64,000 nucleotides of DNA from Bacteroidales bacterium (lineage in GTDB: Bacteria; Bacteroidota; Bacteroidia; Bacteroidales; UBA7332). How positions within the stretch are numbered: the stretch's first letter is position 1; the number at the start of each line of letters is the position of its first letter. The notes under the pieces were generated by a model. That model was not told the DNA's origin. It worked only from the letters and a program-made list of their open reading frames with translations, and did not search any database. Shown here in pieces: positions 2,654-46,126 of this stretch. Location: the NCBI GenBank assembly GCA_028687995.1, contig JAQTZA010000013.1, positions 1-64,000 of the forward strand, given 5' to 3'. The position numbers were made by a program, and so were the translations under genes.

Positions 2654-4090
2654 TCAACGAACCACGAGTTTTACGCAGCTCGTACCATTTGACCGAGTAA
2701 TGTGTAGCAAGTAAACACCTTGCTTTAATTGCCCTTTGTCCAAAGAAAATTGTTTGGAAATTTCTCCAGCCTCTACCCACTGTTTTCCCCAATCAACCAC
2801 CTTCATTCCGGTCAATGATGTAACCGAAAATTCATAAAGAGTAGAGAAATCGTTGTAAAAATGAAGACTAAAATTGTCTTTTATTGGATTTGGAGAAACA
2901 ATCAGTTTATTGGTATAAGGCGTCGTTTCTAGCTTTGTAATGAGTGATTGATAGTGGCCTGCCTTTTGTAAATTAAAAATCTCAAAATTGTAACCACTGC
3001 TGTAATAATTATGAGTATTATGAATTTTGAAATGTACTTGATGTATTGTGTCTGGAAGATTTTCGGCAATACGAGCAAAAGATAATGCCGGTCCCCAAGT
3101 AGAGGTCCAATATGAATCAAAATATTTATGTGTTCCATTATCTACCCATACCTCTACTCTACCTCTTTCTGGCGAGTTATGTCTGGTGTATAGAAATGAT
3201 AATGCTTTGCCATTCATATCAAAACTAAGAGTTGCACCAATTGTATTTGAATTCCATCCATTTTCCGAAACATTCCATCCCGTATTTTCTGAAGGAGTTA
3301 TTGTAGAATGTGAGTATTTTTCTGTGTGCTCGTAAAAATCTGAGTAAAGAGGCGATGCAATATTTGACAAACTATCAATATCAATGAGTGTTATCGGTAG
3401 ATGCTTATAGATTGAATCCAACTCGTCAGTAACAAAATTGGCAATATACTGCATTCCTAAATCGACGGGATGTAATCCGTCTTCAAAATATAGATTAGCA
3501 ATGGGAACTGTGTCTTGAGCTACTTTTGCATCAATCCATTCTGCATAATTGATACAGGGTATATTATAATGAAATGCGATGGGTTTATGCGCCAAATATC
3601 CAGTTCCACCATTTTGTTCTCGGAGCATCAACATCATCAATCCAGGGTAATTGGTATTGTGTAAAACTTGCCGAACAAGCCCTTCCATAGTTTGTGCCAC
3701 CAATTCGTTAGCTCCGTCGTTTACAGAAAATTCGACAACCACAAAATCTGGATTGTAATCCAATAAATCTTGTCGCAATCGATGTACTCCAATATCGCTG
3801 CCAGTACCTCCAATGCCTGCATTCACAAGTGTGACAGACGATTGCGGAAATTTTGATTTCCACCAATCTGTCACCAAATTCGTCCATCTTTTAGCAGGTG
3901 TTGTGGCAAAAGATCCATACGTGATGGAACCACCAATAACTCCAATGACAATAGGAGCACCTGATTGAGCTTTTTGCATCGCTTTGTAGATACGTGCAGT
4001 ATCGTAGCGTTGGGTAAATTGCGATTGTCCATGTATATGTATACAAAAGTTTAAAAGCAATATGAATATGGATGATTTTTTAATGCTCAT
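2654..4090 (-). CDS. SGNH/GDSL hydrolase with C-terminal T9SS sorting domain
   Basis: Signal peptide; GGSITYG and DGLHPVDLG blocks; C-terminus SPNPIKDNFSL...QGVYLLHI...KLVV typical of type A T9SS domains. Confidence 0.85.
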   Translation of the reverse strand: MSIKKSSIFILLLNFCIHIHGQSQFTQRYDTARIYKAMQKAQSGAPIVIGVIGGSITYGSFATTPAKRWTNLVTDWWKSKFPQSSVTLVNAGIGGTGSDIGVHRLRQDLLDYNPDFVVVEFSVNDGANELVAQTMEGLVRQVLHNTNYPGLMMLMLREQNGGTGYLAHKPIAFHYNIPCINYAEWIDAKVAQDTVPIANLYFEDGLHPVDLGMQYIANFVTDELDSIYKHLPITLIDIDSLSNIASPLYSDFYEHTEKYSHSTITPSENTGWNVSENGWNSNTIGATLSFDMNGKALSFLYTRHNSPERGRVEVWVDNGTHKYFDSYWTSTWGPALSFARIAENLPDTIHQVHFKIHNTHNYYSSGYNFEIFNLQKAGHYQSLITKLETTPYTNKLIVSPNPIKDNFSLHFYNDFSTLYEFSVTSLTGMKVVDWGKQWVEAGEISKQFSLDKGQLKQGVYLLHITRSNGTSCVKLVVR

Positions 4091-4224
4091 TATTTCGATG
4101 AAAGCCGACTATTAAAATTTATAATTAGTGTGCAAATATATGGTTAAAACACGATTTCGGTTATTTCCAATCAAAAATTAATGTAATGTTCATTCGAATT
4201 GATGTTGATTTTATATAAAAACTA

Positions 4225-4253
4225 AAGAGGATGCCTTATCCAGACATCCTCTT
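4225..4253 (-). terminator. Terminator hairpin for the 4272..4766 gene
   Basis: AAGAGGATG...CATCCTCTT inverted repeat. Confidence 0.5.
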
Positions 4254-4271
4254 CAACATTGGAAAAACTTC

Positions 4272-4766
4272 CTAATTTAAAATTTCATTCAATTTCTGTG
4301 GTGAAACATTTTTCGCTACAACTACTCCATTTGGGTCAATCAGGTAATTCGTATACCCATTCGACAAATTGTAATTACGATAAACGTCAGAATTTTCTCC
4401 TTGAACTACATTCAGTTGTGTATTCGGATCCATTCCATCGGCACTTACCGTCTCTTCAAAAATAGTTCGATTAGTATCGAATGAGAGAGACAAGTTGTGT
4501 ACCCTGTTGGCATAATGCCGTTTTATTGAGTTGTAAAGAAGTAGATTGTTCATACGAGACTCTCCATCATACGCTGCCCAAAATTGCAACAAGAGATATT
4601 TGCCTCGCATACTACTCAACAACTCTTTTCCATTTTCGTCGATTTGAATCTCAGGAGCAAAGCTACCCGGCGTTAATCCCTCTTCTGGTCGAACATCTTT
4701 GGTGACGTAAGCAGTCAGTGGAATCAAAATCAACAAAAGCAGAAAATAGCTTTTGAAAGAACGCAT
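4272..4766 (-). CDS. TlpA/thioredoxin-fold lipid- or membrane-anchored protein lacking the CxxC
   Basis: Signal/TM segment MRSFKSYFLLLLILIPLTAYV, then a TlpA-like core (GKYLLLQFWAAYDGESR). Start at Met45 of the track ORF (4766) preferred. Confidence 0.7.
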   Translation of the reverse strand: MRSFKSYFLLLLILIPLTAYVTKDVRPEEGLTPGSFAPEIQIDENGKELLSSMRGKYLLLQFWAAYDGESRMNNLLLYNSIKRHYANRVHNLSLSFDTNRTIFEETVSADGMDPNTQLNVVQGENSDVYRNYNLSNGYTNYLIDPNGVVVAKNVSPQKLNEILN

Positions 4767-5004
4767 AAAATTTGGTTTTCGTTTCACAATAAGCTTTCCG
4801 TCTAAAAAAATAGAGCGAAAAACTCTGCAGATTTTCTGCAACAAAAAAGATAATTCATTCAAAATGAACACACTTTTCTGGTTCTTCAACCGATGCAAAG
4901 ATGAACCGAATGAATTAGAAGACCAAAATTTATTGTTTTTTTATGAGAAAAAGAGCCGTTTTAACTCTTTATCTTCTCAAAATAGTTAATTTATGTTCCC
5001 GTTT

Positions 5005-5304
5005 TTAGTTAAAATAGTCTACGCAGGCTCGGCTTTCAAGGTGTTCTCTGATGATTTTTGCAACAGCTAGGTGATCGGGATGTTTTGCATAAACTTCCAC
5101 ATCCTCCATTTTCTCAAACTCAGAAGTCAATGAAAAATCATACATTTCTGATGAGTTCGCATTGATACCCACTTCCATGCTTTTCAATACTTCTATTTTT
5201 GAAGTTAATCCCTCAAGACTTGCCTTGATTTCACTTAATTTCGAAGATTTAGCCTCCTCAGATTCAAACTCTTTTAACTTGAAAAGTACAATGTGCTTTA
5301 CCAT
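5005..5304 (-). CDS. Dabb (stress-responsive alpha/beta barrel) family protein
   Basis: MVKHIVLFKLKE..., 99 aa, typical Dabb length and motifs. Confidence 0.88.
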   Translation of the reverse strand: MVKHIVLFKLKEFESEEAKSSKLSEIKASLEGLTSKIEVLKSMEVGINANSSEMYDFSLTSEFEKMEDVEVYAKHPDHLAVAKIIREHLESRACVDYFN

Positions 5305-5502
5305 TATCTATATTTTAAATTGTTTGTAGGTGCAAATTTACACGATTTATTGAGAATGAATAGCTGAAAAAGTTACCAACTATCATAAATTGTGTCATCA
5401 TTGTCCTCATAATTTGATATTTTTATTTTAAATGATTGAATGAAAAGAATTGAAATCATTCTGAAATATTATCTTTGCAATAAGATAACACTAACTCTAA
5501 AA

Positions 5503-6477
5503 ATGATAAACAAAATGGAAAAACCGTATGTAATTGGTATCGACATGGGCGGTACAGGCACCAAATTTGGAATAGTTGACACTAAAGGGAACATATTGGG
5601 TCAAGGATCAATTCCTACACCTGAATATCCAGAAATTCAAGATTACATCGACGCACTCTATGAAGGACTACTTCCTCTGATTGAAGAAGTGGGTGGAGTT
5701 TCTCAAATAAAAGGCATTGGTATTGGTGCACCCAACGGTAATTATTACACTTCATCTATCGAATTTGCACCAAATTTACCTTGGAAAGGTGTAGTACCAC
5801 TAGGTAATCTATTGAAAGCTAAATTCCAACTTCCAGCTGTTGTGACCAATGATGCAAATGCAGCCGCTATTGGTGAAATGACATACGGCGTAGCTCGAGG
5901 AATGAAAAACTTCATTATTATTACCTTAGGAACAGGAGTAGGTAGCGGTATTGTGATCAACGGTGACTTAGTATATGGTCACGATGGTTTTGCAGGTGAA
6001 CTAGGACACACCACTATTCGTCGCACAAACGGTCGCCTCTGTGGATGTGGTAAAAAAGGTTGTCTCGAAACCTATGCTTCGGCTACAGGAGTTGCACGTA
6101 CAGCACGTGAAATCATCGAGACAAGCAAAGAAGACAGCACACTCCGTTCATTAGATATTGAAAAAATCACATCGAAAGATGTATATGAAGCGGCTATTAA
6201 AGGAGATAAAGTGGCAAAAGAGATTTTTCAATTTACTGGAAATTTGCTAGGAGAAGCATTTGCTGATTTCGTGGCATTCTCTGCACCCGAAGCAATAGTT
6301 TTGTTTGGTGGATTGGCTCAAGCAGGTGATTTGATTATGAAACCTATCAAAGATGGATTGGATAACAATGTCTTACCAATCTGGAGAGGCAAAATCAAAG
6401 TACTTCCATCTAATCTCAAAGCAAGTGATGCGGCAATACTTGGAGCAAGTGCTTTAGGCTGGGAAGGTAAAGAATAG
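5503..6477 (+). CDS. ROK family protein / glucokinase
   Basis: IGIDMGGTGTKFG, NDANAAAIGE, GTGVGSGIV, ROK zinc-site CGCGKKGCLE. Internal Met start chosen because a TATCTTTG promoter-like box lies at 5470-5477, downstream of the track start. Confidence 0.92.
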   Translation: MINKMEKPYVIGIDMGGTGTKFGIVDTKGNILGQGSIPTPEYPEIQDYIDALYEGLLPLIEEVGGVSQIKGIGIGAPNGNYYTSSIEFAPNLPWKGVVPLGNLLKAKFQLPAVVTNDANAAAIGEMTYGVARGMKNFIIITLGTGVGSGIVINGDLVYGHDGFAGELGHTTIRRTNGRLCGCGKKGCLETYASATGVARTAREIIETSKEDSTLRSLDIEKITSKDVYEAAIKGDKVAKEIFQFTGNLLGEAFADFVAFSAPEAIVLFGGLAQAGDLIMKPIKDGLDNNVLPIWRGKIKVLPSNLKASDAAILGASALGWEGKE

Positions 6478-6504
6478 AAAGGCAATCTTATCTTTTGATA
6501 CATT

Positions 6505-6546
6505 ACACAAAAAAGGCTTCTCAAAAATGAGAAGCCTTTTTTGTGT
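6505..6546. terminator. Bidirectional terminator between the ROK gene and rplS
   Basis: 18-bp perfect stem ACACAAAAAAGGCTTCTC / GAGAAGCCTTTTTTGTGT. Confidence 0.85.
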
Positions 6547-6562
6547 GTCATAAGAAATGAGA

Positions 6563-6910
6563 TTATACTCGTTTTTCTTTGATTCTTGCTTTTTTACCTG
6601 TAAGAGCACGTAAATAATAAAGTTTAGCACGACGTACTTTACCTACTTTATTTACTGTAATACTTTCGATAAACGGTGAATTAACTGGAAAAATACGCTC
6701 AACACCTACGTTGTTTGATATTTTACGAACAGTCATTCGTTTGTTGACACCGTGACCTGAAATGCGAATAACATCTCCACGATAATCCTGAATACGCTCT
6801 TTGCTTCCCTCTTTGATTCGATAAGAAACAGTAATTGTGTCGCCACTTTTGAATTTTGGAATTGTTACTCCAGTTTCAAATGCTTGTTCGGCAATTTTGA
6901 TAAAGTCCAT
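6563..6910 (-). CDS. rplS: 50S ribosomal protein L19
   Basis: [22 protein letters not shown]..., [39 protein letters not shown]. Start at MDFIKIAEQ. Confidence 0.97.
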
Positions 6911-7084
6911 TTTTATTGTATTAAAATGTTCAACTAAAAACGCAATATTCACAGGCAACTCTATTCCTGTCAGAGATTACGAAAAGCGGTGCAAAATTAC
7001 GCACATTTTCATTAAAATCCAAACTTTATCATCGATATTTGTTGCTTAAGAGCAATACCAATCAGCTTTACTACAAATTTTCGT

Positions 7085-8416
7085 TCAATACAACGATTTT
7101 CCATTATAGAAATCAAGAATCTTACAACGGAATATGAAGTCATATTTCGCCTGAACCTTTTCTGATAATGATTTCAAGCGTCGATTATTGCTTTCATTAA
7201 ATTCAAATGAGGTCGATTTTCCCGATTCAAATTTATCCCGAGCATATTGATAAGCAATATTTGAAGCCTCTAGTGATTTTTCAGCTGAATTGTATTTATC
7301 ACGAGCTGCAACAGCATTATAATAGGCTTGTTGCACATCTTTCAAAAGTTCTTTTCGCGTATTTTCTACATTCAATTCACTCGATGAAATAGCAATTATC
7401 GCTTGCTTTACTTGATTTCTTGTTTCGAAGCGATTGAAAATTGGAATATTCAAAGAAAGTCCGATTGCATTTCTACCATTTTGATTAATTTGATCACCAA
7501 AGCCAGTATTTGAAAGTCCGACTGGTAAATTGTAAGTATAATAATAACCATTAGAATAAGAAGCCCCTAAACTTAAGGTAGGATAATATCCTGATTTGGC
7601 GATTTTAAGATTACGTTTACCCTCTTCCAATCTATATTCAGCCTCCTTCATAGATGGCCTGCTGCTTATCGATTGGTGGTATGTTTGTTCTACTTCGGCT
7701 ATATTAACAACGCCAGTTACCATCATTCCATCCGTTAAGGTTTCGTCCACATCAAAATTATCTATCTTCTCGACCTCCATCAATTGAGCCAAATCTAGTA
7801 GCGAAAGTTGGAGATTTGATTTCGTTTTGGTCACTTCGCTCTCATCACGAGCATTAGTGGCTCGTGTTTCGAACAATTCTGATTCTGGCAATTTACCAGC
7901 ACTGACCAATATTTGGGTACGTTGCATTTGATCAGCACTTAGCTTTGCTTGTTCTATTGCCACCTTATTCAATTCTTTGTTGTACACTACTTGTAGAAAA
8001 CCCGAAGCAACATAAAGAGCCACTGCCTCTTTTGTTTTATCGATATCAGCATTTGCTGCTAATAAATTATAACGATTAGCTTCTATTTGATTCGACAATC
8101 GAAACCCAGTGAATAAAGGCATTGAACTATTAATCGAGAGTCCAAGATTCATAGAATTGACATCACGAATTACACCATCTCTCGATGTTGAACGCCCAAA
8201 ATCAAAATTCTGATTTGCGCCTGCATTTAAATCTGGCAACCAACTATTTTTGGATGTATTAAGTTTTGTTTCAGCAGATTCTTTTGCTAATACTTTTTGA
8301 CGGATCTGAATGCTATGCGTCAAGGCATGATCAACACATTGTTGCAAAGTCCATTTATCTTGAGCTGAAACAAGCTCAACACTAAGTACACACAGAATGA
8401 TTATTAATATTCTCAT
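7085..8416 (-). CDS. TolC family outer-membrane efflux protein
   Basis: Signal peptide, WTLQQCVDHAL, repeated OEP helical pattern. Confidence 0.92.
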   Translation of the reverse strand: MRILIIILCVLSVELVSAQDKWTLQQCVDHALTHSIQIRQKVLAKESAETKLNTSKNSWLPDLNAGANQNFDFGRSTSRDGVIRDVNSMNLGLSINSSMPLFTGFRLSNQIEANRYNLLAANADIDKTKEAVALYVASGFLQVVYNKELNKVAIEQAKLSADQMQRTQILVSAGKLPESELFETRATNARDESEVTKTKSNLQLSLLDLAQLMEVEKIDNFDVDETLTDGMMVTGVVNIAEVEQTYHQSISSRPSMKEAEYRLEEGKRNLKIAKSGYYPTLSLGASYSNGYYYTYNLPVGLSNTGFGDQINQNGRNAIGLSLNIPIFNRFETRNQVKQAIIAISSSELNVENTRKELLKDVQQAYYNAVAARDKYNSAEKSLEASNIAYQYARDKFESGKSTSFEFNESNNRRLKSLSEKVQAKYDFIFRCKILDFYNGKSLY

Positions 8417-9584: not shown

Positions 9585-11096
9585 CTATTCTTCGCGAATG
9601 GCATCAATCGCTTTTATTTGCAATGCTCTCCAGGCCGGTATAAAACCAGCAATCAAACCAGAAATTAAAAGTATAATTAATGCCCAAATTGCCATTTGAA
9701 AACTTATTTGTGGATGAGAAAAAAATACATGTTCCTCAGAATCAACTTTTGAAGCAGTTATTATATAACTGACAACCCGTATTACTGAATAGGTAATACT
9801 CACTAGGAAAATGGTAATCAATGATATCAATTTAATCAATTGATAAAAAAGTGTAGTATTGATTGGAATCCTGAACACATTTAACATATGTAAAATATCC
9901 ATTTCAGATTTGATAGATTTTATTTGTTTGATAATGAAATTTCCAAATAAATATAGAGCTATGATTAAAACAACAAATAAAAAAATCCAGACAATGATTA
10001 TATAACTGAACAGATCAACTAGTACTAAAATTCCAACACCTACACATAATCCTAGAATACCCGCAAATAATGTCAGTAATAAGGTTTCACTCATTACCTG
10101 TGTAATAATTGTACGAGGTTTTGCCCCAATAGCTCTTCTTATTCCAATCTCTTTTGTTCGCTCTTTCACTGTAACCATCATTATATTACTTACACCAAGA
10201 ACTCCTGAAAAAAGTGTTCCAGAAGCCACCACCCAAGTAAGAAAGTAAATTCCCAAAAAAAGATAGCTAAACATAGTAAATTGCTTTTCTAAATTGACAC
10301 TATTTACAGCTTGTGCATCATTTGGAGCAATATTATGCTGTTTTTTAAGCTCATTTTTGATTTGTTCTTCAATCTCACTAATTTTATAGTTATCCTGAGC
10401 AGTAATAGCCAAAAGATGTACATCTTCTCCATAATTATACGCTTGTTGCATAGTTGTTTCTGGTAGAATAACACTTTCCGCCATCGGTCCATTGATATTT
10501 ATGACGGTTATAGGATTTATTACTCCCACCACTGTGAAATACATACCGTTCACTTTTAACATCTCACCAATAGGTGAAATTCCTTTTTGAAACAAATCTT
10601 CATATATTTTGCGACCAATTACAGCTACTTTTCTCTTTTCTCGAATATCAATTTCGTTGATAAATCGACCATATAGCAATTGCTGGTGATCTATTTTATC
10701 ATATACTGGATAAAACCCTTTGACAAAATAGGCTCCAGCTTTATCTTTATAAACAGTATTATTAGGTGAATTGCCGCCAAAGACCATTGGCGTTATGTAT
10801 TTAATTTGAGGAATTTTACTGCGAATAATTTCAATATCGCTATTTTTCATATTCCAGAAACGTCCCTTTCTAAAACCTTTGAATGGCTCGGAAGTAGAAT
10901 TTGTCCAAAAAAAACAAGAATTCGTGGAGAATCCCTTTATTCCTTCCATTATACCATTTTCCAGAGCTTTCCCCGAACCCGCCATAACAACAAGAATAAA
11001 AATACCCCAAAAGATTACGAATCCAGTCATAACACTACGCGTTTTATTACGCGTAAGTGTGACCCAAATCTCCTGCCATCTATCTAAATCGAACAT
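9585..11096 (-). CDS. MacB/FtsX-like ABC transporter permease with an enlarged inter-TM region
   Basis: N-terminal MacB_PCD region, GVSNIMMVTVKERTKEIGIRRAIGAKP, C-terminal AGFIPAWRALQIKAIDAIREE. Confidence 0.9.
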   Translation of the reverse strand: MFDLDRWQEIWVTLTRNKTRSVMTGFVIFWGIFILVVMAGSGKALENGIMEGIKGFSTNSCFFWTNSTSEPFKGFRKGRFWNMKNSDIEIIRSKIPQIKYITPMVFGGNSPNNTVYKDKAGAYFVKGFYPVYDKIDHQQLLYGRFINEIDIREKRKVAVIGRKIYEDLFQKGISPIGEMLKVNGMYFTVVGVINPITVININGPMAESVILPETTMQQAYNYGEDVHLLAITAQDNYKISEIEEQIKNELKKQHNIAPNDAQAVNSVNLEKQFTMFSYLFLGIYFLTWVVASGTLFSGVLGVSNIMMVTVKERTKEIGIRRAIGAKPRTIITQVMSETLLLTLFAGILGLCVGVGILVLVDLFSYIIIVWIFLFVVLIIALYLFGNFIIKQIKSIKSEMDILHMLNVFRIPINTTLFYQLIKLISLITIFLVSITYSVIRVVSYIITASKVDSEEHVFFSHPQISFQMAIWALIILLISGLIAGFIPAWRALQIKAIDAIREE

Positions 11097-11182
11097 CTAT
11101 CTCTGTTTATAACACAAATATAGAAAAAGAAACGATTCACTTTAATATTCTACTTTAATTTAAGCAACATTAAGAAGCGAAA

Positions 11183-11213
11183 AAAACCTCCCTGGAAATT
11201 CCAGAGAGGTTTT
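11183..11213 (-). terminator. Terminator downstream of rpsP
   Basis: AAAACCTCcCTGG/CCAGaGAGGTTTT hairpin. Confidence 0.6.
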
Positions 11214-11252
11214 AACTAAGATAAAATGAATCCTATAGCTTTATAACTAAAG

Positions 11253-11828
11253 TTACTCAGCAGCAGGAGCTTCGTCAGCAGCAGGAGTTTCTTCTACTGG
11301 AGCAGCTTCAGCAACTGGTGCTTCTTCTACTACAGGAGCTTCGACTTCTTCTACAACTACAGCTTCTACGACGGCTCTTTTCGATGCCAGTGCTTCAGCT
11401 TTAGCTTTATTTACCTCTTTTTCAGCATCGAGACGTTTTGCTGCAGCTAATTTAGCAGCTTCGCTCAATTTTGATTTTTCACCTTGAACAGTTGCTTGTT
11501 TAGAAGCAGACCATTTTTCGAAGCGAGCATCAGCTTCTTCGGTAGTGAAAGCACCTTTTTTCACTCCACCAGCAAGGTGTTTTTTCAACATAATACCTTC
11601 TTTAGAAAGGATATTACGTGCAGTGTCGGTAGGTTGCGCACCTGTTTGTAGCCAATACAAAGCTCTTTCAGAATTCAAATCTATTGTAGCAGGATTTGTA
11701 TTCGGGTTATAAGAACCGATCCTTTCAATAAACTTTCCATCACGTGGAGCCCTGCTGTCAGCAACTACAACTTGATAGAACGCATAACCTTTGCGTCCGA
11801 ATCTTTGCAATCTGATTTTTGTTGCCAT
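11253..11828 (-). CDS. rpsP: 30S ribosomal protein S16 with Ala/Glu/Pro-rich C-terminal tail
   Basis: [42 protein letters not shown]. Start at Met27 of the track ORF. Confidence 0.96.
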
Positions 11829-12366
11829 TAGTCTTTTGTTTAAATGAATTAATAAATGCTTTATTATTAGCGGCGACAAAGATACAATTTTATTCTGTAA
11901 ATACAAAACGGACTAAAATCCGTCATTACAATCATTACAAAATAGTAAAAAACGCCATTTTTGACGTTAAAAAATTATTCTATTTAATGAATATACTATA
12001 AAACAAGGACGTAAAATAGAGTTACAATACACTTTAAACTATCTTCTTATTTTAATTTATTGGATAAAATTCGAAATAATATTACTATTGGTTGATTAAA
12101 TTGTAAAAAAAATAGCTATATTAGCTGTCAATAATACAAAATGGAAGGAATTGAGCACAGATAACCCTATATTTCTGTTTTCAAATCTATAATATTTGAT
12201 AAATTAGTTTCTTGATTGTATAATAAAGTAAAAAATAACAAACCAAATAAAATAAAAAATGTTTTAATAGTGAAAATATTTCTCACAAACAGTTTTGATT
12301 GCAAAATACTTGAATATCACCACACACAAACCAAATATTTTAAACAACCCTTTAAGCTTATTTACT

Positions 12367-40477: not shown

Positions 40478-40497
40478 AAGGTTTGTTTTTTGTTATA

Positions 40498-40643
40498 CCC
40501 AAGGCGATGCCGTTGGGTTGGTTTACTCTTACACCCAAGGCGTTGCCGTTGGGTTGATGCTATACTGTCCTGTCAGGGCGCTTTTGGTATCTTTGATATG
40601 GCTGAAGGCCTTATATATCATCAACCTAAGGCATCGCCCTAGG
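40498..40643. repeat. REP/BIME-like cluster of three imperfect palindromes
   Basis: CCCAAGGCGATGCCGTTGGG (40498-40517), CCCAAGGCGTTGCCGTTGGG (40534-40553), inverted-orientation CCTAAGGCATCGCCCTAGG (40625-40643). Confidence 0.75.
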
Positions 40644-40706
40644 TCATGAAGCCGAATAGCTTATGCGCCATGGAGGGGCAACATAAAATACCGATAAAAC
40701 GATGCG

Positions 40707-41486
40707 TTAATGTTTGAAAATATGTGTAAAATGATAATTCAAAAATTCTGGAGATGGCAAAAACTTATCAGGTAAATGAATTTCCTTGTTTTCGTAGGCT
40801 ATGAAATGCTGTTCAATAGCAGGAGTGACAACTTTCTTTTGCTTCAATTGAGGTGATAGAATCACTCTGTAATCTTCCGGTGACACGGTAATCAAACCAC
40901 AATCAAATGCTTTATCGTGGAGAGCATTCAGGCACAAACCATTCATCGGATTCAATCTATTCTTATCATTCTTGCTCCAAGGAACAATATGGCTGGCAAT
41001 CAATAACTCTTGCTGATTCAAGCCTGTAATACAGCACTGTTGATTGTAGGTAGCCAACACGATATTACGAAACAGAGATTGGTTCACCCTTATTTTTACC
41101 ATTCGTTCTTTTTCGATACCGTCTTTGGGGAGATCTTCAAAACTTATGTGGTTAATTCGCTCTATCGTGGTGTGTTGTTTCTCTGCAAATAGTTGCTCAC
41201 TTTGTAGCAACGCAGCATCCCAATTCTGATAAAATTCATCCCAAATGGCCTTGTCTAATTTGCTGGCATTCGCAGCACCTTTTATCCCTCTTGCTTTTAA
41301 AGTTGGATCGAAACTTGCAAAATTACCCAATTTAAAAGCCACAGACGAGGGCGTGCGACCAATCAATTCCGCAAATTCAAGAATCAGAGCATTGCCTTTG
41401 TGCATCTTACCAAATGGCAATTTACAATATAAGTTGATGGCTAAAATTAATTCATCTCGTGTCCAGAGGGACTGTCCTTGTTTCAA
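40707..41486 (-). CDS. HNH endonuclease (candidate restriction nuclease)
   Basis: CCITGLNQQELLIASHIVPWSKNDKNRLNPMNGLCLNALHDKAFDCGLI; N-terminal RTPSSVAFKLGNFASFDP block. Confidence 0.88.
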   Translation of the reverse strand: MKQGQSLWTRDELILAINLYCKLPFGKMHKGNALILEFAELIGRTPSSVAFKLGNFASFDPTLKARGIKGAANASKLDKAIWDEFYQNWDAALLQSEQLFAEKQHTTIERINHISFEDLPKDGIEKERMVKIRVNQSLFRNIVLATYNQQCCITGLNQQELLIASHIVPWSKNDKNRLNPMNGLCLNALHDKAFDCGLITVSPEDYRVILSPQLKQKKVVTPAIEQHFIAYENKEIHLPDKFLPSPEFLNYHFTHIFKH

Positions 41487-41496
41487 ATGATACGAA

Positions 41497-42390
41497 TTAA
41501 TGTGTTAATACTATTTTTATTTTTTCAAAATTAACGGTGTGCCTCTGCAAGTCCTTTCTAATAATTTTACATATTTCATCATTAAATACAAAATCGCCAT
41601 CAGCTAATGATAATGAACCATCTTCTAAAACAACTTCTTTAACGTGAGCTAATTTATTTCTCTTATCAATAATATCAGATTTGTAGTTATTTAGTAACTC
41701 TATAATTTCCTTATCTCCGATATGATTAGCAATGTTTTGTACGGACATCCATTTATGATTTGTACTAAAGTCTCTGTGTTCAAAGATTGAATCATCAGAT
41801 AAATTACTAAAAGTACCAATCATATCATTTAGTGATTTTAATACTTTTTTCTTACGCTTATCAATAAATCTATTTTTTTCATCTGTTTCAAGATTGGACA
41901 GATATTGTTTTAAAAGATCAATCATTTTATGGTCTAACTCTGATACTTCAGCCATTACTAATCCTCGCATATTGTTAATATCTTGAACTTTTCTTATCGT
42001 AGAATAAATAATTTTCTCAACCTTCTTAACAAATGAATTTCCATCCCTACCTGAAAAATAAACACCCTCAAGCTCCAATTCTTTTATTTTTTCAGAGACC
42101 TTGCTCACACCTTCAGATGAATAAAATATAATGTTTGTAAATACCTCAAATCCGCGAATTCTTTGTATTAACTTATCCCCTGTTGGAGATTTATCCAGAT
42201 TTAAATCCATTAGAATTAAATCATAATTCGAGAAATTTACATTCTCCAAATCATCACCATCTTTTTTAAGAAGTGGTAGATTCATTTTAAAACCTAATTC
42301 ATCCTCAACAATTTCCCTAATATTATCAACAATAGATTCATACCAATCTACATCATTTTCAAACCAAAGTATGCTATATTTTAAATTCAT
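41497..42390 (-). CDS. Receiver-domain protein with C-terminal HEPN-like helical domain
   Basis: Receiver core: acidic WFENDVDW, YDLILMDLNL (D62), NIIFYSS (S91/S92). C-terminal IIDKRNKLAH gives R244-x4-H249. Confidence 0.7.
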   Translation of the reverse strand: MNLKYSILWFENDVDWYESIVDNIREIVEDELGFKMNLPLLKKDGDDLENVNFSNYDLILMDLNLDKSPTGDKLIQRIRGFEVFTNIIFYSSEGVSKVSEKIKELELEGVYFSGRDGNSFVKKVEKIIYSTIRKVQDINNMRGLVMAEVSELDHKMIDLLKQYLSNLETDEKNRFIDKRKKKVLKSLNDMIGTFSNLSDDSIFEHRDFSTNHKWMSVQNIANHIGDKEIIELLNNYKSDIIDKRNKLAHVKEVVLEDGSLSLADGDFVFNDEICKIIRKDLQRHTVNFEKIKIVLTH

Positions 42391-44714
42391 TTTTCTAACA
42401 GAATATTTAATTCAAAACCTTTTTTAATTTTAGAGTTTACAGAGATTTTCCCTTTTAATTCAGATGAGATTGTATTAGCTACGTTATATAATCCAAGACC
42501 TGAACCTGAAGTAGTTGTAATACCTTTTTCGAATATTGAAGCAGGATTATCAATCTTATTTGAAAGTCCTTTCCCATCATCATTTATTTTTAATCCGATT
42601 GTTTTTTCATCAATATCTAATATTTCAATGAAAATATTATTCGCATTTGCTTTTATCGAATTATCCACAATATTATCCAACAATAAACTTATTTCTAATG
42701 GTTTAAATGGTTTTACAAGACGAGATTTGGCATTATTATTAAAGTGAACTCTTATATCTGGATAAAACTCTTTTAATACATTGTCAGAATATTGCTCAAT
42801 AAACGAAATCAAATCAGTATCTCTCAATTCTTGTCCTGAAAGATTAAAATTCGCTTTAGTTGCGAATCTTGAAATCGATAATATTTTATTGTTTGCTCTT
42901 GAAACGGCTTCATTAAACTTTTTTAACTTGTCTTCTGTAAGAGTATTTTTCTCAATTTCTTTTGCAATACGACTAAGCCAATTATTTATTGTACTTGCAT
43001 GTACTCCTATATCATGGTGATATCTTACTATTCTATTAATATCCTGATTGTCTACGGCTTGAAGGAATAATACCTGATTTGTCTTATCATCTAATTTTTG
43101 TTCAAGCTTTTCATTCTTAATTAATGTATCAATTGCCTCATCTTCTGCATTATCCGTTCGTTTCTCAAGCTCATTAATCTTGGATTCTGCTTTGCGGATT
43201 CCCTTTAAAACGTCATCTTTATTGAAATTCTCTTTAATCAAGTTCTCTTTAATCTCAGATAAAACGCTTCGTGCAGAATTATCCTGTTTTTGTTCAAGAA
43301 TTTGAAACAAATCCGGAGCATACTCAATTGAAATAAAATTTCTTGATTTAGTAAGTTTTGAAACTATTCTTTGTAAAGCTACAATTCTATCATTTTCGCT
43401 AAGGTTTATATAATCATCTTCGGATAAATCTTTACCCCAATCTGAAACATCAATAATATATCTTTCGAGACGTTTTAATGTTACATAAAACCATTTATAG
43501 AGTTCAAAATAGGCTTCTGTTTTTTTTAGACCATCACCGCGACTAGAGGTCTCATTTAAATCATCATTTGAATTTAGTATATTTATATACCCTACAACCT
43601 CACGTGTTCCTAGATTTCTGTTTTGACCTTGCGCCTTTCTATTATCCATTTTCAATGGATCTTCACCTCTTTCTCCGTAAGGAAAAACACGTAATCCATT
43701 TTTATAAATAAAGATATGCCCATATTCTACAGGCTGTATTCCCATTCTTTTACTAAACGTCAATTTTGCAGATCTATTAAGATAATAGATAGTAAAATCA
43801 ATATTATGTAATAATCCCAACGGATTAGTTTCCTTTACACTATATACAAGCTTACCTCCCTCATAAAGAGTAGTTTTAATTTCGGAATTATTATTTATTG
43901 AAACCTCAGAAACTATTTTTGTAGTTTTAAGATCAAGTTCTTCGAAAATAAGATTTTCAATTCTTCCATTTACTACATCTTTATAAATAGCTTCTCTTGA
44001 CAAGCCTTTTTTATTTCCTTTGTGTTTTACATTTTCATCATCATTTAATTCAGAATCTGCTTTAATCCATATTTCAAAAACATCATTTGAATTCTTAGTA
44101 TTAGGATTTATTAGTTTTGCTAAGGCTCCTTTTAATTTCAATATTTTATCTCTCGACCAATCACTCTTTAAATTTGAAATTTCTAAAACAGTTCCAACAC
44201 TGATACCATAATTACTTCGTTCGATTGTTTCGTGTAGTACACTAATATTTACAAACTCATCTTTCAAGTTTCCCTCAAACTTATCCCACTCAGTCAATAG
44301 AGATTCTATTTTAGAATTAGGTTCATCTTTGATAGTTTCCAAATACAGTTCATGTCCTAATCTATCACATGAAAAGCGTCCGATACCTTTAGCACCAGCA
44401 TAAGCCCTTTTTACCTTTATTCTATTCCGATAATCGTAGTTATTTTCTTCTGTACCATCTTTTTTCGCAGAATATGCAACGAACAGCCATTTATTGATAA
44501 GGTCTTCATAGTTCATTCCCTTACCATTGTCTTTTATGATAATCTTTGCATTCTCAGTATATAGATCAATAAAACAAACTTCAACTTTTGTTGCATGAGC
44601 ATCATATGCATTTTTCACCAACTCAAAAACAGCAATAAAGTCATCACTGATAAGATCACTACCGATGATGTTCTTTAGAGCAGAGCTAACTTTAAACCTT
44701 AATTGTTCTGCCAT
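42387..44714 (-). CDS. Dual GHKL ATPase: N-terminal MutL/MORC/Hsp90-like module plus C-terminal histidine-kinase-like HATPase
   Basis: N-terminal ELVKNAYDA (E31-N35), DNGKGM (62-67), GAKGIGRFS (107-115). Coiled coil and YHHDIG (H566/H567). C-terminal LLDNIVDNSIKANA, NDDGKGLS, GSGLGLYNV. Confidence 0.85.
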   Translation of the reverse strand: MAEQLRFKVSSALKNIIGSDLISDDFIAVFELVKNAYDAHATKVEVCFIDLYTENAKIIIKDNGKGMNYEDLINKWLFVAYSAKKDGTEENNYDYRNRIKVKRAYAGAKGIGRFSCDRLGHELYLETIKDEPNSKIESLLTEWDKFEGNLKDEFVNISVLHETIERSNYGISVGTVLEISNLKSDWSRDKILKLKGALAKLINPNTKNSNDVFEIWIKADSELNDDENVKHKGNKKGLSREAIYKDVVNGRIENLIFEELDLKTTKIVSEVSINNNSEIKTTLYEGGKLVYSVKETNPLGLLHNIDFTIYYLNRSAKLTFSKRMGIQPVEYGHIFIYKNGLRVFPYGERGEDPLKMDNRKAQGQNRNLGTREVVGYINILNSNDDLNETSSRGDGLKKTEAYFELYKWFYVTLKRLERYIIDVSDWGKDLSEDDYINLSENDRIVALQRIVSKLTKSRNFISIEYAPDLFQILEQKQDNSARSVLSEIKENLIKENFNKDDVLKGIRKAESKINELEKRTDNAEDEAIDTLIKNEKLEQKLDDKTNQVLFLQAVDNQDINRIVRYHHDIGVHASTINNWLSRIAKEIEKNTLTEDKLKKFNEAVSRANNKILSISRFATKANFNLSGQELRDTDLISFIEQYSDNVLKEFYPDIRVHFNNNAKSRLVKPFKPLEISLLLDNIVDNSIKANANNIFIEILDIDEKTIGLKINDDGKGLSNKIDNPASIFEKGITTTSGSGLGLYNVANTISSELKGKISVNSKIKKGFELNILLEK

Positions 44715-45934
44715 TACTTCAAAAGTTGTTTTAGAATAATTCCTCCTTGTTCCGCAAACAACGGTGGTATTGCATTTCCTATTTGTGAATATCTGGGAAC
44801 TTCTTGAGTTCGAAGTTTTCCACCTGTAGTATATTTTCCTTGAAACTTAAACCAGTCAGGAAATGATTGAATGCGAGCATATTCACGAACCGTCAAAATT
44901 CGAGGTTCAGAATAATGTATATAATCGTCAGGTAAAGTTGTTATAGTTGGTGATTTTGAAAATTCGTCTAATGGGATGATGGTATGCTTTTTAATATTGT
45001 ATCGTTCTCGAATAGACGAATCTATATCTTTATTTTTTCTTGTTGATGAATCAATTATAACCTGAAACTTTGCCGTTATATCAGGTCTGTGTTTTGGGAA
45101 ACGATGACTATCTGCTATTTCATTTGTAATCCCTACTCGCATTAATTTCTGATAGTTTGTTTTAGCTTTCGAATAAATACCAGCTTCGTAACTCCTAGTA
45201 TCGGGAGATTCACGAAGTCCATTATTTTTCAACAAATCTGAAATAGCATCATTTAGATTCGTTTCTACCCTTAGATTTTTCTCTTTCAAAAAAGAATGCC
45301 GATTTTGCTCTATCTTTTCAAAGAAGCTATTTGCAACCTCCTGGGTAGAGTGTTTCAAATCCTTTCTTACCCCTACTAGAATAAAACGTGTTCTTTTTTG
45401 AGGAACACCATATTCTCCAAAATTCACAAGTTGCCCTTTAACATAATATCCAGCATCATTCAGTTCACTTTCGACAAATGAAGCGTAGGCTTTTCCTTTG
45501 TCCTTATTCTTCTTAAATTCAAGAGTAAAACCTTTCACATTCTCGAAAAATAATATTTTAGGTTGTATTATCTTAACAAAATCAATATAAGAAGTAATCA
45601 AATTATTCCGTTGATCACTTTCATTTCTTCGTCCAGCCATCGAAAAACCTTGGCAAGGTGGCCCACCTGCAACTAAATCAACTTGGCCTTGTAACTTTAA
45701 GAATTTATCTTTATATAGTTCAACTGCTTTATCAATTTCAATACTTTCTTGTGGTAGCCATTTAGGCCAGTCAAAATGTTTTTTATTATCAATAAGATTA
45801 TATTTTAGCGTTTTGAATGCATCTGGATTTTTCTCAATGGCAAATATCCCTTTCCAACCTGCATAATGAAGCCCTAAAGAAAGGCCTCCACAACCGGCAA
45901 ATAAATCGATATATTTGTATTGTTTCGCGCTCAT
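44714..45934 (-). CDS. DNA (cytosine-5-)-methyltransferase
   Basis: DLFAGCGGLSLG (I), GGPPCQGFS (IV), FENV (VI), QKRTRFILVGVR (VIII), QIGNAIPP (X), all intact. Confidence 0.96.
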   Translation of the reverse strand: MSAKQYKYIDLFAGCGGLSLGLHYAGWKGIFAIEKNPDAFKTLKYNLIDNKKHFDWPKWLPQESIEIDKAVELYKDKFLKLQGQVDLVAGGPPCQGFSMAGRRNESDQRNNLITSYIDFVKIIQPKILFFENVKGFTLEFKKNKDKGKAYASFVESELNDAGYYVKGQLVNFGEYGVPQKRTRFILVGVRKDLKHSTQEVANSFFEKIEQNRHSFLKEKNLRVETNLNDAISDLLKNNGLRESPDTRSYEAGIYSKAKTNYQKLMRVGITNEIADSHRFPKHRPDITAKFQVIIDSSTRKNKDIDSSIRERYNIKKHTIIPLDEFSKSPTITTLPDDYIHYSEPRILTVREYARIQSFPDWFKFQGKYTTGGKLRTQEVPRYSQIGNAIPPLFAEQGGIILKQLLK

Positions 45935-46126
45935 ATAATGAATTTTTCACAAACATACAAAAAAGATACAAAATATCTCTATGAATATAGAAGTAAATTG
46001 CTTGTATTACTCATCATTTGGCTAGAAAATTCTTTTTTTTACAGATATTTAATTACAAAAAAAAACGCAGCCGATTTTCATCAGCCGCGGTCATTTCAGT
46101 TACTCAGTAAATCAATTACTCAATTA

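Follow-up and report, generated by a model that had tools for sequence, protein, structure and literature searches.

A candidate mobile defence module of C5 methyltransferase, GHKL sensor-kinase and receiver-HEPN protein, with an optional HNH nuclease, in a Bacteroidales genome

Four tightly packed genes in a Bacteroidales genome raise the question of whether they belong together and, if so, what they do together. They lie in the window, by which we mean the whole 64,000-nucleotide stretch that was analysed (contig JAQTZA010000013.1, assembly GCA_028687995.1), and encode a C5 methyltransferase (MTase), a protein with two GHKL ATPase domains (the kinase), a receiver (REC) protein with a putatively HEPN-like C-terminal half, and an HNH nuclease. 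An earlier note, made from the sequence alone, had read this cassette as a restriction-modification (R-M) system under phosphorelay control with an RNase arm. The present analysis upholds a conserved, mobile operon that joins modification to a putative phosphorelay and a HEPN-type output, and does not uphold the HNH gene as a constant member. We put at about 58% the probability that the core is a horizontally mobile three-gene defence module (MTase, GHKL sensor-kinase and REC-effector), accompanied here by an optional HNH gene. The four genes are:

45934 to 44714, minus strand: MTase gene, 406 amino acids
44714 to 42387, minus strand: gene for the dual-GHKL protein, 775 amino acids
42390 to 41497, minus strand: receiver protein gene, 297 amino acids
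41486 to 40707, minus strand: HNH gene, 259 amino acids, TTG start

The close packing and common direction that the earlier note had described are borne out by the coordinates of the open reading frames (ORFs) and by the junctions. The MTase and kinase genes meet in TAATG and the receiver and HNH genes are separated by 10 nt, both read directly in the sequence, while the ATGA overlap of the kinase and receiver genes was derived from ORF coordinates.

The best 80 loci of a kinase-anchored scan of 85,462 species genomes were kept and, with one IMG/VR contig added, make a set of 81. In 74 of the 78 testable loci the MTase gene is the immediate upstream neighbour in the same orientation (within 30 nt in 73), and the receiver gene lies directly downstream of the kinase gene in 76 of 79, with the exact 4-nt overlap in 45. 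On the MTase side there are true departures from this order: L045 and L084 have no adjacent MTase gene, in L076 it is on the opposite strand, and in L085 it has moved downstream. Where no receiver gene was called, the locus is at a contig end or has a truncated or broken kinase (L035, L053, L054, L056), apart from L040, in which the gene caller missed it. The hosts are mostly Bacteroidota and also include Pseudomonadota, Planctomycetota, Bacillota, Verrucomicrobiota, Chloroflexota and others, several of the genomes being metagenome-assembled, which makes single phylum labels less certain. The arrangement of the first three genes is thus far beyond chance, and the HNH gene is recurrent but optional: relatives of it lie near 5 of 80 loci, in the window's position and without a gap in L027 and L028, adjacent on the opposite strand in L050, and upstream in L041 and L054. 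That four unrelated defence genes were merely gathered in an island might be argued from the lack of HNH in most relatives, but for the trio this is refuted by synteny and tight packing in about 95% of testable loci from several phyla, and we regard it as highly improbable. The co-occurrence check proposed in the earlier note therefore came out in favour of the trio as a unit and against a fixed set of four.

The HNH protein matches PF13391 (HNH_2, E = 6e-12) and has the HNH endonuclease 6yex as its relative in the Protein Data Bank (PDB; E = 4.5e-11). PADLOC 2.0.0, another check that had been proposed, holds models that fit the MTase and the HNH protein (HNH model, E = 4e-97; type II restriction endonuclease HNH model, E = 6e-43); it gave no match for the receiver protein and nothing convincing for the kinase, the best being TmtA at E = 0.007. 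The gene is probably that of a restriction endonuclease added as an optional fourth member; as the core effector the HNH protein is ruled out by its occurrence near only those few loci. In the window an intact MTase and an HNH nuclease occur together, as the two parts of a putative type II R-M system of which the HNH protein may or may not be the cognate nuclease; most relatives have no HNH gene nearby.

Mobility is seen in a comparison with a genome of the same genus (L164). The features concerned are:

40478 to 46126: inserted segment, absent from the same-genus genome
46066 to 46089, minus strand: terminator-like hairpin, a 10-bp stem followed by a T run, a consensus match only

In the same-genus genome an empty interval of 119 bp separates the CYTH gene from cydB, and in the window all four cassette genes occupy this gap. 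The empty site between the same flanking genes and the low G+C content of the cassette (31.7%, compared with 41% and 38% on its two sides) show that the cassette was acquired as one unit, the HNH gene having come with the trio or in the same insertion. The hairpin follows cydB, a short way upstream of the MTase gene, and separates the cassette from the cydAB operon.

The dual-GHKL protein consists, in order, of an N-terminal ATPase of the MutL/paraMORC type (residues 27-137, PF13589 HATPase_c_3, E = 3e-24), a central domain, a coiled coil, a DHp helix with H567, and a C-terminal histidine-kinase ATPase (residues 674-772, PF02518 HATPase_c, E = 3e-19). Within this second ATPase, N685, G739 and G741 are invariant in the 79 aligned kinases. 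The N-terminus of the window protein is related to MutL and to the BbrUII/HgiDII restriction enzymes (E = 1e-20), and one might suppose that the protein acts in its own right as an ATP-dependent restriction factor of the latter kind and works with the HNH nuclease, the receiver merely tuning it; the HNH gene beside the trio in the window, L027, L028 and L050 would agree with this. The BbrUII/HgiDII match is, however, confined to residues 15-201 and scores 74 bits against a family cut-off of 550, the C-terminal half is a kinase and not a nuclease, and HNH is missing near most relatives, so that we consider such a restriction factor improbable.

The residues and domains on which the sensor-kinase and REC-effector reading turns are located as follows:

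43014 to 43016, minus strand: codon of H567, putative phosphoacceptor His
42043 to 42390, minus strand: REC domain, with the putative phosphoacceptor D62 at 42205-42207
41500 to 41979, minus strand: C-terminal helical HEPN-like domain, with the RNKLAH motif (R244 to H249) at bases 41644-41661

Conservation of H567 in 79 of 79 kinases and of D62 in 67 of 67 full-length receiver proteins (21-43% identical to that of the window) supplies the paired His and Asp of a two-component phosphorelay, along which phosphoryl transfer would putatively run. The receiver alignment also has W9, G71, R79, Y90, R142, G143, R244 and H249 invariant, and N245 is kept in 64 of its 67 members. Of the catalytic residues named in the earlier note, H567, D62, R244 and H249 thus stood the comparison, and H566, at a position that varies among the 79 kinases and is mostly Q, is ruled out as phosphoacceptor.

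We are confident of the receiver fold. The window protein matches PF00072 at E = 2.9e-6 with 27.9 bits, slightly below the cut-off of 30.2, and this domain was found in 59 of the 67 family members. An AlphaFold2 model built from the 67-sequence alignment (predicted local distance difference test, pLDDT, 90.2; predicted template modelling score, pTM, 0.84) has a (beta-alpha) receiver followed by helices at 138-165, 169-187, 210-224, 227-233 and 236-249, the last of which terminates in the RNKLAH motif; a hairpin and a helix at 271-296 follow. The C-terminal half is helical, with ten-residue mean pLDDT values mostly of 82-95 and a weaker stretch of 64-68 at 181-200, and its R244 and H249 agree with the R-x4-6-H motif of the HEPN RNase superfamily. 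Many HEPN RNases have R-N-x-x-A-H as their catalytic signature, and two Bacteroidia HEPN_MAE_28990 proteins carry RNKLAH, as the window protein does, and RNSLAH. Some receiver proteins match HEPN_MAE_28990 (8e-4, in L037, spanning residues 155-287), HEPN_Swt1 (1.2e-3) and HEPN_RiboL-PSP (1.1e-5), those seen individually being sub-threshold, and a custom HEPN_MAE profile placed 19 receiver proteins among the top 50 of 3,098 ORFs, where about one is expected. We judge it probable that the C-terminal half is HEPN-like; RNase activity would be the predicted consequence. Two loci deserve mention here. In L017 a separate HEPN_Swt1-like protein (11453-12196) is encoded directly downstream of the REC-HEPN gene, and in L049 (about 10370-11271) the REC-HEPN gene is seemingly split, with the C-terminal part alone called, through decay or sequencing error.

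Related loci that keep the MTase and the kinase carry other outputs. In five of them a REC protein of about 230-250 amino acids is followed by a separate protein of about 220-250 amino acids with invariant HG and (S/T)C-x-S, which has no convincing Pfam match and is reminiscent of caspase-like proteases; on the kinase tree, these five loci cannot be accounted for by fewer than four label changes. Seven loci, which form one clade of that tree, end in REC alone (124-142 amino acids), and no recognisable effector adjoins them (L040, L043, L044, L045, L048, L082, L092). Distant plasmid relatives in Enterobacter, Campylobacter and Hymenobacter have a related kinase and a REC-type protein of 340-385 amino acids with another C-terminal domain, neither HEPN nor PF19192, that is a putative further output type; a C5-MTase lies beside this pair in the Campylobacter and Hymenobacter cases, with Vsr in Hymenobacter. 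The positions are:

L034, 10950-11648: caspase/CHAT-like protein replacing the HEPN output
L041, 11015-11677: likewise
L079, 11025-11780: likewise
L085, 11009-11725: likewise
L090, 10962-11693: likewise
L137, 6001-9223: plasmid relative, REC-type protein with the domain 'PGEMYI...TGDI...(I/T)xTPxCD'
L138, 215-5496: plasmid relative with the same type of domain
L139, 6001-10454: plasmid relative with the same type of domain

REC would then be the common adaptor across related loci, and we infer that outputs which change behind an unchanged sensor are more in keeping with a defence effector than with a gene regulator. Searches of phages and plasmids returned no relatives of the receiver protein, and the kinase relatives found there match no more than about half of the kinase's length. 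The trio is present on one contig classed as viral (L012, IMGVR_UViG_3300017589_000282, 3781-8194), the neighbouring ORFs of which have no PHROG match, so that its viral origin is uncertain. Its proteins are 79% (MTase), 52% (kinase) and 26% (receiver) identical to those of the window, which suggests faster change of the output protein.

Several observations weigh against a killing RNase as the output. We know of no HEPN match above the Pfam gathering cut-off, those seen individually all being below it; hhalign comparisons with small HEPN sets were weak (best E = 0.0046), though this match outdid the controls and fell on the motif; a PDB profile search found no solved relative of the C-terminal half; and Foldseek of the whole receiver model gave REC-driven matches only, the top ones being receiver domains and response regulators with target-normalised TM-scores of up to 0.75. 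The structural search that had been proposed thus recovered the receiver fold, which dominates the whole-model matches, and did not display the HEPN half. Moreover, the REC-only members have no visible toxic output, which leaves room for regulation rather than killing. These points bear on another explanation, namely that the pair is a two-component regulator of R-M in which the receiver controls expression or activity of the MTase or the restriction endonuclease and has a C-terminal domain that attaches to nucleic acid but does not cleave RNA. The same suggestion was made in 2021 for the HEF_HK/Response_reg_2 pairs (PMC8011034), and both the REC-only members and the sub-threshold HEPN matches agree with it. 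Yet R244 and H249 of the HEPN motif are strictly invariant in all 67 proteins, no DNA-binding domain was recognised, most loci have no recognised adjoining restriction endonuclease to regulate, and the exchange of the output for a caspase-like protein is easier to reconcile with an effector than with a regulator. We therefore consider a pure R-M regulator unlikely.

The MTase matches PF00145 (E = 1e-61) and has all catalytic motifs, with PCQ at residues 93-95; C94, E131-N132-V133, Q179-x-R181-x-R183 and other motif residues are invariant in 71 full-length MTases of the family. By eye, from sequence, we identified Vsr in the flanks of 8 related loci and a MutY/endonuclease III-like glycosylase in those of 7, in addition to recombinases. 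The glycosylase genes are just upstream of the MTase gene in L041, L061, L062, L077 and L080, and are also found in L040 and L059. We read them as a probable alternative to Vsr for repairing deaminated 5-methylcytosine; both kinds of neighbour would fit an active 5-methylcytosine methylase whose deamination products need repair. The near-constant linkage of the MTase, together with the empty site and the nearby recombinases, would also suit an addiction module in which the MTase is the antidote and loss of methylation lets the kinase and RNase kill segregants, phage defence being secondary. This mechanism overlaps with that of a defence module, and as an account of the cassette we rate it as quite unlikely.

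For the three-gene defence module we consider an anti-phage role most likely, with a putative signal and a predicted RNase activity, and the following course of events can be proposed. The C5-MTase, with its intact motifs, would methylate a motif in the host genome and thereby mark it as self. The N-terminal MutL/paraMORC-like ATPase may clamp invader DNA, a DNA-protein complex or unmethylated host DNA, and an ATP-driven rearrangement would let the C-terminal kinase phosphorylate H567, from which the phosphoryl group would pass to D62 of the receiver, as the invariant residues and strict operon linkage suggest. Phosphorylated REC may then dimerise or otherwise unlock the C-terminal HEPN domain, which, to judge by its motif and weak homology, would cut RNA and halt the cell or the phage. 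Where present, the HNH nuclease may cut unmodified DNA as a first-line restriction arm.

A broader proposal, which we advance tentatively and at somewhat below even odds, is that of a widespread immune architecture in which a MutL/MORC-like histidine kinase reads DNA modification and acts through a REC phospho-switch on interchangeable killing outputs (HEPN RNase, caspase-like protease and others). If true, this would be restriction-modification whose effector is not a DNase, and it would join methylation-based self/non-self marking, phosphorelay signalling and abortive-infection RNases, fields that seldom meet. It would also give a testable answer, effector switch-on, for the pairs resembling two-component systems (TCS) that were found beside R-M systems in 2021, and would bear on the way in which MORC-type ATPases, a group with eukaryotic relatives that act on chromatin, might respond to DNA methylation. 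H567, D62, R244 and H249 are obvious mutant targets, and the swappable outputs are natural controls.

Among known systems, the MORC/paraMORC GHKL ATPases of R-M operons (Iyer, Abhiman and Aravind 2008, PMC2292703) share with the window an N-terminal GHKL ATPase linked to DNA methylases, whereas the window has in addition a DHp helix, a second, histidine-kinase ATPase and a REC partner, and no helicase in the cassette. The paraMORC-Ymh HEPN fusions (Anantharaman et al. 2013, PMC3710099) likewise couple a HEPN output to a paraMORC-type ATPase in R-M neighbourhoods; there the HEPN domain is fused to the ATPase, whereas in the window it is on a separate receiver protein, which implies phosphoryl control, and its sub-threshold matches are to MAE_28990, Swt1 and RiboL-PSP rather than to Ymh. 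Likeness to BbrUII/HgiDII lies in the N-terminal GHKL domain and is limited to the first 200 residues. Detocs employs two-component logic in phage defence, as proposed here; its components and outputs differ from those of the window, and it is not known to include a methyltransferase.

The closest published system is the HEF_HK (PF19191)/Response_reg_2 (PF19192) pair, a TCS-like pair linked to R-M systems (Bellieny-Rabelo et al. 2021, PMC8011034). As in the window, a kinase of HATPase_c_3, DHp-like and HATPase_c domains has an adjacent receiver and an upstream C5-MTase; HNH_2 is the commonest nearby nuclease, control of R-M by the pair was proposed in that paper, and neither HEPN nor phage is mentioned there. 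Bacteroidia Response_reg_2 members have an MTase, a GHKL protein of about 1000 amino acids and a regulator of about 550, followed once by an HNH protein that is 34% identical to that of the window over 119 residues; this true Response_reg_2 system (L167, 5122-11682) has its genes in the window's order. Kinase profiles of the two families are related at E = 4e-39 to 8e-44, whereas the profile of the window-family regulator gave no match to Response_reg_2 regulators, and the window has a kinase of 775 amino acids and a regulator of about 300 with an invariant HEPN motif. The window family fails both Pfam models. Its kinase does not reach the PF19191 cut-off (24.1 bits). PF19192 (cut-off 27 bits) gave no match for the window receiver or within its genome, none over the cut-off in the genomes of 28 relatives, and one at E = 0.0017 among the 67 family members, while in the positive control 7 Bacteroidia genomes exceeded the cut-off. 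Membership in the HEF_HK/Response_reg_2 family is thereby ruled out, and since the regulator of true members also differs, the window proteins form a separate branch of the described kind. In the open-licence literature, where a subscription paper could be missed, we found no account of a HEPN-ended branch; HATPase and REC proteins that are predicted but unvalidated, and that may or may not correspond to those of the window, appear in a figure legend of DefensePredictor (PMC13092281). The earlier note's suspicion that the exact combination is undescribed therefore holds for this branch alone, a domain-level equivalent having been reported in 2021 (PMC8011034). The general layout has been known since then, and the RNase-ended branch with swappable effectors appears to be undescribed; new are the REC-HEPN output, the invariance of its motif, the optional HNH gene, the empty site and the interchangeable outputs.

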